IMG/VR virus record: IMGVR_UViG_3300042445_002084
Span: 1 to 20,834 of that record
From: a virus
DNA length: 20,834 nucleotides
Reading direction: 5' to 3' (one strand)
In this document: one piece after another, positions 16,440 to 17,813 of the stretch
Numbering within the stretch: position 1 is the stretch's first letter
Layout of the letters: the number at the start of each line of letters is the position of its first letter
Position numbers and translations under genes: made by a program
The notes under the pieces: generated by a model
What the model saw: the letters and a program-made list of their open reading frames with translations, nothing else
What the model was told of the DNA's origin: nothing
The model's database searches: none

Positions 16440-16473
16440 GCGTAATTAGTTACGCCTATCAGCTAGTTAGGTG
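16440..16473 (-). other. Partial attC-like site, left end of the cassette patch
   Basis: Contains a 6-bp hairpin GCGTAA/TTACGC (16440-16455) and the box GTTAGGTG (16466-16473). The box is the exact complement of CACCTAAC at 16863-16870, the inner box of the next site, which is what the ends of one integron cassette should show. No matching second box is visible here, so the site looks degenerate or cut. The 16474-16501 stretch to the next stop codon shows no clear feature. Confidence 0.45.
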
Positions 16474-16501
16474 CAATATTACGTACACACCCGAACGACA
16501 A

Positions 16502-16678
16502 TTATAACACTAATTCACTTTCAACTATATCATAATTATTTCCCATTGTACGATTAAATTCACGTCCGTAATTTTGTGCATCTTTAAATTCAGTAAAAGA
16601 TTTGACATCATTTTGAAATACCTCAATTCCATTAGAAAAATAAGGAATGACTGTGTATATTTTTATTTCTTCTTTCAT
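16502..16678 (-). CDS. 58-aa hypothetical protein in cassette 2
   Basis: A frame MKEEIKIYTVIPYFSNGIEV... ending ESELVL. An alternating strand pattern in the first 25 residues and a helix around DAQNYGREF; looks like a compact alpha/beta fold. It starts 1 nt after the stop of the gene upstream, so both are co-translated. No family recognised. It lies within the attC-bounded patch and is read in the same direction as the cassette. Confidence 0.66.
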   Translation of the reverse strand: MKEEIKIYTVIPYFSNGIEVFQNDVKSFTEFKDAQNYGREFNRTMGNNYDIVESELVL

Positions 16679-16679
16679 A

Positions 16680-16838
16680 TTATGAGTATTTAACTATAAA
16701 ATCTTTTTTTAATTTATCTATATCTTCAGTCCTATAAAAACTTGAAGAATGTTCTGTTTTTCTTGTGCCATCTGAATTATAAAATTTCACTATTCCATTT
16801 GGACATAAAACAACAATATCTTTATTTTCTTTATTCAT
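16680..16838 (-). CDS. 52-aa hypothetical protein in cassette 2
   Basis: Starts MNKENKDIVVLCPNGIVKFY and continues with a beta-rich, Ser-rich stretch and a Lys-rich helix (DIDKLKKDFIVKYS). An in-frame ATG at 16862 would add eight residues but overlaps the attC-like box, so the ATG at 16838, with the usual A-rich leader, is preferred. No family recognised. The ORF is followed after 1 nt by the 58-aa gene. Confidence 0.62.
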   Translation of the reverse strand: MNKENKDIVVLCPNGIVKFYNSDGTRKTEHSSSFYRTEDIDKLKKDFIVKYS

Positions 16839-16862
16839 AATTTTAATTTTTAAAAAATACAT

Positions 16863-16943
16863 CACCTAACAGCAATTATACACAAATGGCGACACGTACA
16901 TTCTGCTTATGCCATCTGCGTATAGTTGCAAAACGTTATAACC
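16863..16943 (-). other. attC-like recombination site between two cassettes
   Basis: Plus-strand layout: box CACCTAAC (16863-16870), 1-nt spacer, arm 16872-16890, 20-nt loop, arm 16911-16929, 5-nt spacer, box GTTATAACC (16935-16943). The arms pair over 19 positions with only two A-C mismatches and one G-U. The end boxes pair only at TAAC/GTTA, as in attC sites. It shares TAACAGCAA and TTGC-N4-CGTTA with the site at 17204-17262. The site is visibly GC-richer than its surroundings. Read as a recombination site rather than a terminator, because no T-run follows. Confidence 0.65.
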
Positions 16944-17212
16944 AATGCTAACTTACTTGTTCCAAATCGAGCCTTGTTTCTCCAAAGCGTTTATTTAGTA
17001 GGCATTGTAACAATGTTCTTTCAGGCACTTTGTAATATTTGCCATTAATAAATATTTTTTCGTGCATCAACATTTCTAACATTGATTTTTTATCAAGTCT
17101 TAAATAACAAGTCATAATTATTCTTGTCTTTGTCGGCTCTTGAATTTCAAAGTAATTAGTTAAATCTATCATTCTTATTTAATTTTTAGTTAATAAATCG
17201 CACTGGTTATAA
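16870..17212 (-). mobile_element. Candidate integron-type gene cassette 1 (343 bp)
   Basis: On the minus strand the cassette begins with TTATAACCA (after the G at 17213) and ends within the site at 16863-16943, whose R''-like box is TGGTTATAAC. The two boxes (16935-16944 and 17204-17213) are a perfect 10-bp inverted repeat flanking one gene of 74 aa (16948-17172), which reads in the cassette direction. Size, one short gene and terminal hairpin fit a gene cassette. No integron integrase is seen in the window. Confidence 0.6.
16948..17172 (-). CDS. 74-aa hypothetical protein in cassette 1
   Basis: Starts MIDLTNYFEIQEPTKTRIIM and ends RLDLEQVS; a basic, mixed alpha/beta protein with no known motif and no membrane segment. 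It is the only gene of the cassette and stops 5 nt from the attC-like box GTTATAACC, typical of cassettes with minimal non-coding DNA. An A-rich leader (16 nt) precedes the ATG. Function unknown; cassette genes are often accessory or defence/anti-defence proteins, so it deserves a structure search. Confidence 0.7.
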   Translation of the reverse strand: MIDLTNYFEIQEPTKTRIIMTCYLRLDKKSMLEMLMHEKIFINGKYYKVPERTLLQCLLNKRFGETRLDLEQVS

Positions 17213-17262
17213 CAGCAAGTAAGCACCATTAAAACGGTTGCCTACTTGCGTTCCGTTAGTGG
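17204..17262 (-). other. attC-like recombination site at the right edge of the cassette patch
   Basis: Plus-strand layout: box TGGTTATAAC (17204-17213), 1-nt spacer, arm GCAAGTA (17215-17221) pairing with TACTTGC (17243-17249), with the stem continued by GCA/TGC and CC/GG around an 8-nt loop, 5-nt spacer, box GTTAGTGG (17255-17262). Same architecture and the same 9-mer TAACAGCAA as the site at 16863. The outer box abuts the stop of the ERF gene (17266). Confidence 0.65.
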
Positions 17263-17265
17263 TAA

Positions 17266-17784
17266 TTATAAGAACATCAATGATTTATTCTGTAATTCTG
17301 TTAATTCAAAAGTTGCTTTAAGTTTATCAATTGTGTAAGTTCCTTGTTTAATTGTTTCTAATGCTTTCTCGAAACGTACATTATCAATAGTTTGTTTTTT
17401 ATGGTCATTAGTAGCGTCTGAATCTTTAGTGTCATCAATTAAAAATAAACCGTTTAAAGCGTATTTACGAGCATAACTAGATGAACTACCATAGCATTGC
17501 GAAACATCCATTCCTTTACGGTTAATATCTATACCAGCTTGAGCAGTTACAAATACTTCTTCTTTTGTTTCATTGTCGATAATCGTTGCAGTTGATTCAA
17601 CGAATACTAAACTACCAACTTCTTTTACTTCATCACTAATTGTTAAAGTACAATTGTATGTCTTTAATAGTGGTTTTAAAGCTTCTAATATATCTTCGCA
17701 ACTACGGTAATAGTATTTACCAAATGAATTGAATTGCGACTTATTAGCCTTTAATTCGCTTTGAATGTGTTTTAAACTTTCCAT
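17266..17784 (-). CDS. ERF family ssDNA-annealing recombinase
   Basis: A 172-aa protein with the ERF superfamily core: KANKSQFNSFGKYYYRSCED (N-terminal block), TISDEVKEVGSLVFVESTAT, and the diagnostic QCYGSSSSYARKYALNGLF followed by LIDDTKDSDA. ERF proteins anneal complementary strands in phage recombination and DSB repair, with SSB. The frame reaches a TTG at 17808, but this falls inside the TATATTTG box, so the ATG at 17784 is chosen, 22 nt downstream of the box. It is the first gene of the unit that runs through the cassettes to SSB. Confidence 0.93.
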   Translation of the reverse strand: MESLKHIQSELKANKSQFNSFGKYYYRSCEDILEALKPLLKTYNCTLTISDEVKEVGSLVFVESTATIIDNETKEEVFVTAQAGIDINRKGMDVSQCYGSSSSYARKYALNGLFLIDDTKDSDATNDHKKQTIDNVRFEKALETIKQGTYTIDKLKATFELTELQNKSLMFL

Positions 17785-17805
17785 ATTTCTTATTATTAGT
17801 TTCTG

Positions 17806-17813
17806 CAAATATA
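17806..17813 (-). promoter_or_regulatory. Promoter -7 box for the ERF-SSB unit
   Basis: Minus strand TATATTTG, a perfect consensus match, 22 nt before the ERF start. No TTG at the proper spacing is visible, so the -33 element is weak or different. Confidence 0.62.

Follow-up and report, generated by a model that had tools for sequence, protein, structure and literature searches.

The stretch of DNA analysed here (the window) is a 20.8-kb virus record from IMG/VR, a fragment of a phage genome. It encodes a portal protein, terminase, primase/helicase, exonuclease, ERF, SSB and endolysin. The nearest kin of its portal protein belong to Polaribacter, Flavobacterium and Cellulophaga phages. For this reason a Bacteroidota host is likely, although the host is not known. 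The segment of interest lies in an operon on the minus strand with the order ERF, hairpin, 74-aa gene, hairpin, 52-aa and 58-aa genes, box, 158-aa gene and SSB (Table 1). The three small genes (74, 52 and 58 aa) have no match in PHROGs, Pfam or phage-record searches. A 61-aa open reading frame overlaps the 52-aa gene, and its GTG start falls within the attC box.

Table 1. Coordinates of the cassette array and the adjoining phage genes in the window.
Feature	Position	Strand	Remarks
158-aa phage gene	15920..16396	-	attI side of the array; directly after ERF in empty relatives
attI-like docking site	16440..16468	+	Palindrome GCGTAATTAGTTACGC (16440-16455), then CTATCAGCTAG/TT; predicted crossover after 16466
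Cassette A (58-aa and 52-aa genes plus own attC)	16467..16935	-	Ends TTAGGTG...CACCTAA; 8-nt inverted match of ends; attI-attC borders
58-aa gene of cassette A	16502..16678	-	No family match
52-aa gene of cassette A	16680..16838	-	ATG start; no family match
attC of cassette A	16864..16941	+	Canonical polarity on the + strand; crossover G/TT after 16935; geometry score 37.5
Cassette B (74-aa gene plus own attC)	16936..17255	-	Ends TTATAACCA...TGGTTATAA; 10/10 inverted match of ends
74-aa gene of cassette B	16948..17172	-	Function unknown
attC of cassette B	17207..17261	+	Crossover G/TT after 17255; geometry score 30.5; DNA fold z -2.5
ERF single-strand annealing protein	17266..17808	-	Pfam PF04404, 3e-37; phage gene, upstream side of the array

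The two hairpins have the anatomy of attC sites. On the gene (minus) strand each reads TAAC, 5 nt, arm, loop, arm, 1 nt and GTTA. They are the top two sites of attC geometry in the window, and the best of 15 shuffles scores 28.0. The same geometry at a score of at least 30 does not occur in 536 kb from 75 array-free relatives. Folding energies are modest (z -2.5 and -1.2), which is weak evidence by itself and not decisive. A covariance model was built from bacterial attC sites only (30 of them) and searched against 600 kb comprising 81 phage loci, with rough calibration. Both sites are significant. The model matches 16864-16941 with 48.4 bits (E 2.7e-8 in 600 kb and 9.4e-10 in the window alone) and 17207-17261 with 35.0 bits (E 5.1e-5 in 600 kb), in each case on the strand opposite to the cassette genes. 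Other matches below E 1 in the 600 kb are confined to the filled relatives L002, L004 and L005 (contigs and loci are designated L plus a number). An Rfam scan of the window gave no match. An integron cassette should carry a hairpin that fits an attC model, with outer AAC/GTT boxes, spacers and an imperfect inner stem, and the window sites meet this expectation.

A further expectation for an integron cassette is that R' pairs with R'' at the opposite end of the same cassette. This is met in the window and is general in other arrays. Inverted pairing between module ends covers 10/10 nt (16935 with 17204) and 8 nt (16466 with 16863), compared with 4-5/10 within a site. In other arrays module ends mostly match at 8-10/10 and within-site pairs mostly at 4-7/10. 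An earlier sequence-only reading had placed two strong hairpin sites with attC layout at 16863-16943 and 17204-17262 and had proposed box swapping between module ends. Both claims held.

The same reading described a third, degenerate hairpin site at 16440. The DNA there is real, but the class was wrong. A position weight matrix (PWM) was derived from 22 bacterial attI sites found beside integron recombinases. Its best score in the entire window, 28.0 bits, coincides with the predicted crossover after 16466. The next score is 14.2, and 300 shuffles did not exceed 18.9. Because the matrix peaks exactly at the predicted crossover, the supposed third hairpin is an attI-like site, and its classification as a degenerate attC was rejected. 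One caveat is that part of the score stems from the cassette side. A complete integron has an attI beside its cassettes, and the window satisfies this (0/300 shuffles score as high as the full site, whereas 3/300 reach the score of the short core without the cassette-derived part).

Comparison of related phages at the ERF and 158-aa genes showed that the site can be empty or can hold other cassettes. The closest ERF relatives, L003, L005, L006 and L007, are empty here, with the 158-aa gene directly after ERF. L002 has the same attI-like site with a single different cassette at this place, the protein of which is 65% identical to an L089 cassette protein by alignment. L004 has a different array. 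The right flank of the window is common to L002 exactly from the AAC box onward (AAC/TAGCTGATAGGCGTAACTAATTACGC). L005, empty between ERF and the 158-aa gene, has the same attI-like site at another place and carries two cassettes upstream of ERF, ending AAC/TAGCTGATA. The 74-aa cassette is also present in phage contigs L082 and L083, which are unrelated to the window: the 278-bp gene module is 91% identical and the flanks are at background (~62%). Thus, a third expectation for an integron cassette, that it be a mobile unit found in different contexts at sites that can be empty or differently filled, is met. The attC stem of the 74-aa module in the window (17204-17262) differs from those in L082 (3650-3710) and L083 (3899-3966). 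This difference is not explained by a simple attI x attC insertion, and it counts against a site-specific integron reading.

In other phages a second, longer conserved motif (AAC/TTACATCTTTGCGCTACTTTATAGCGAC) follows the last AAC box, just before small phage genes. An IMG/VR scan for this second attI-like site returned 41 stretches, from about 40 viral contigs, with 0-6 cassettes on one side. They include an empty/filled pair, L144 and L084, whose left flanks (600 nt) are 92% identical and whose right flanks (300 nt) are 96% identical. The inserted DNA is placed precisely at AAC. The pair differs by exactly one cassette, and there is no target duplication beyond the box. Across L144-L180 the gene that follows the docking site is small and of one of three kinds (69, 49 or 87 aa), and PHROGs gave no match for the 69-aa and 49-aa kinds. 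One contig (IMGVR_UViG_3300042861_000386, comprising L147 and L169) contains two attI-like sites that precede different small genes, and each of the sites holds a cassette of its own. Pfam recognises 11 families among 58 phage cassette proteins, and DNA methyltransferases lead.

Which way do the cassettes face? The sequence-only reading assumed that attC lies 3' of the genes, and this assumption failed. In the window attC is at the 5' side of the cassette genes and attI is at their 3' end, so that the genes point toward attI. Gene orientation was counted relative to the polarity of attI and attC as set by the independent models. Among phage cassettes, 44 of the 45 that could be resolved point toward attI (inverted), and six further ones are unclear. 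Bacterial arrays contain 28 canonical and six inverted cassettes (n=34). The phage and bacterial polarities differ (Fisher p 1.8e-14), with the reservations that contigs are not independent and that orientation was called automatically from the longest open reading frame. The genes of a complete integron are oriented away from attI, and this is not met in the phages.

The inversion extends to a cultured phage. P12002L (L223), a lytic Polaribacter phage, has at least five attC sites with the same polarity, the genes there are likewise inverted, and an attI-like motif, AAC/AACGGATAAAACAAGTTTTACC, occurs twice. At 29150-29260 and 37200-37305 of this phage, the attI-like palindrome and its downstream sequence are duplicated at the ends of two methyltransferase cassette arrays.

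In 15 of 41 phage cassettes an open reading frame has its start within the 5' attC and continues across the GTT box. Therefore, attC would encode the N-terminus of the protein in such cassettes, an inference from sequence alone. Open reading frames of this kind include L005 4488-4685, L082 4034-4186, L088 880-1128 and 1203-1895, L089 1687-2376 and L176 350-595. They start in the attC loop, and the junction often reads ..AVSGS... A separate observation concerns L100 (1160-1410), a bacterial array with one inverted, phage-like cassette, the ends of which (GTTATAACCAGTGC..GCATTGGTTATAAC) are the same as those of the 74-aa cassette in the window. Perhaps this reflects cassette exchange between phage and host.

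One component is missing. A complete integron has an integrase gene beside attI, and this is not met. Neither the window record nor 26 further related phage/viral records, many of which are fragments and several of which are 31-69 kb long, contained a tyrosine recombinase (PF00589). A recombinase could be encoded in the missing part of the window phage genome, but there is none in relatives of 31-36 kb.

A candidate has been found in bacteria. A scan of 84,980 bacterial genomes with the attC consensus gave 10 loci. Only L100 and L101, both in Bacteroidota MAGs, are real arrays; the other eight were rejected as arrays, being inside genes or without a stem. The genomes of L100 and L101 carry 355-380-aa tyrosine recombinases that pass NCBIfam NF040815, named 'site-specific tyrosine recombinase/integron integrase', and not TIGR02249 (192-206 bits vs. 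a cut-off of 265). Homologues (E <=1e-60) are present in 80 of 296 Bacteroidota genomes. In the closest homologues, the recombinase is closely followed on its 3' side by a site ...TATAAACGAG/TT, and then come a same-strand gene and attC. The attI box matches the first attC box at 8-10/10 nt in 13/13 loci where both were recognised. Thus, sites similar to those of the window do exist in Bacteroidota integrons, in arrays beside recombinases.

Is this recombinase an IntI? An IntI should match TIGR02249 in full and contain the IntI-specific insert, and the candidate does neither. The spacing between KGxKDR and HxLRHS is 58-59 residues in 31 proteins, compared with 100 in eight canonical IntI proteins. 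The closest solved structures are XerA (5hxy) and an archaeal XerC-like recombinase (4a8e), followed by IntI4. In loci L186/L193, L187 and L194-L221, which are Bacteroidota chromosomal integrons, the recombinase is XerA-like and without the IntI insert, and its gene has attI at the 3' end. Such insert-less integrons have probably been missed by tools that require IntI. Canonical IntI (TIGR02249) was considered as the source and rejected: it is present in 84 of the 296 sampled Bacteroidota genomes, but the arrays there have a different attC type. It was not found in 249 genomes from the order of genome G010.

How does this compare with known systems? Clusters of attC sites without an integrase (CALINs) have been reported in virulent phages, including the Flavobacteriaceae phage P12002L, and so have methyltransferase cassettes (Qi et al., 2023, PMC9892861). 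Two attC sites of P12002L were assayed in that study, and five of six tested phage attC sites recombined with attI1 by IntI1. The window resembles these CALINs in having attC-bordered cassettes in a lytic phage without an integrase. This earlier publication corrects the sequence-only reading, which called cassettes in a lytic-type phage operon an unusual route of gene capture. However, neither attI nor reversed polarity was found in the virulent-phage section of PMC9892861, and P12002L shows the same inversion here. Unlike CALINs as described there, the arrays of the window and its relatives have a docking site that resembles attI, occur in empty/filled pairs and are systematically inverted.

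The Bacteroidota chromosomal integrons (L187, L193-L221) share with the window the attC geometry (1/5 nt spacers), the attI core (..TATNNNCTAG/TT) and the cassette start TTRGNNGCAAT. In contrast to the window, they encode a recombinase, directly adjoined by attI at its 3' end, and their gene polarity is canonical. Classical integrons (IntI1, the Vibrio superintegron) share the G/TT crossover, the R-box swap and an attI plus attC arrays. However, the window has no integrase gene, its genes are inverted, and the candidate host recombinase lacks the ~41-residue IntI insert. No description of an attI platform in virulent phages, of systematic gene inversion or of integrons with an insert-less recombinase was found in the open-access literature searched, which excludes subscription journals and preprints. 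Cassettes in virulent phages were known before. What appears to be new, judged by that literature, is a docking platform of attI type, the systematic nature of the inversion and a probable source in Bacteroidota integrons with an insert-less recombinase.

The likely explanation is that a lytic-type Bacteroidota phage carries an integrase-less integron in this segment, with cassettes brought by a recombinase acting in trans, although no recombination has been observed. The sequence-only claim of integron-type cassettes between ERF and SSB is supported by the covariance model, the relatives and the bacterial arrays. The attI-attC anatomy, the exact borders, the empty and filled sites, the sharing of cassettes between phages and the inversion are all shown. 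In contrast, the recombinase in trans, a circle intermediate, cassette expression and recombination via a folded bottom strand are inferred. In this scenario the attI-like site holds two cassettes, the genes of which would be read from the upstream phage operon. The cassettes probably entered as excised circles, recombined at G/TT by a recombinase supplied in trans, and its likeliest source would be a chromosomal integron of the Bacteroidota host, of the XerA-like NF040815 type. Circles may travel between host integron and phage or from one phage to another, and the host enzyme would then act on the phage attI. Transcription in the phage is directed toward attI, so that a cassette would be expressed only when reversed, and therefore selection or a phage-specific cassette pool could account for the polarity.

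The strongest alternative is a passive CALIN relic. What if attC cassettes came once with host DNA and now move by phage homologous recombination (ERF) at short shared hairpins, without any site-specific reaction? The array adjoins ERF, no recombinase was found in the phage records searched, and the swapped attC stem of the 74-aa module is what homologous or illegitimate exchange could produce. Nevertheless, this is unlikely. In many unrelated contigs the borders of the insertions coincide exactly with the AAC/GTT boxes, with pairing across the module. A conserved attI-like site adjoins the arrays, the empty/filled pair differs by a single exact cassette, and the box held in common does not have the length needed for homologous exchange.

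Small transposable elements with terminal inverted repeats and an unknown transposase, resembling cassettes by convergence, are a much weaker alternative. Module ends are indeed perfect inverted repeats (10 nt in cassette B). However, the repeats differ between modules and change together with the cassette, like integron R boxes, the hairpins match bacterial attC sites beside integron recombinases, and target duplication is absent beyond the box. The hairpins could also be no more than terminators or RNA elements in the ordinary intergenic DNA of fixed phage genes, as the location between co-directional genes and the modest fold z-scores might suggest. This can be all but ruled out by relatives that lack the segment or have a different filling, by the covariance matches and box swapping, and by the lack of an Rfam match.

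This leaves the integrase-less integron as the preferred reading, and a bolder version of it can be proposed. Perhaps the phages maintain a dedicated integrase-free attI platform and a specific pool of inverted cassettes, in which attC serves as a 5' leader and sometimes as the N-terminus, and exchange small counter-defence-type genes such as methyltransferases via the host integron recombinase. In other words, this would be a parasitic integron. The evidence leans toward this idea, but only slightly.

The arrangement may give lytic phages a route to acquire and trade accessory genes singly and with site precision, without carrying a recombinase. Since DNA methyltransferases lead the recognised cassette families, the docking platform may store anti-restriction genes. 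The inversion leads to the prediction that expression from the phage operon selects reversed cassettes. More broadly, the finding connects the gene traffic of phages with integrons of bacteria, in a phylum from which few integrons have been reported (PMC9024848), and the insert-less host recombinases raise the question of what an integron integrase must contain.
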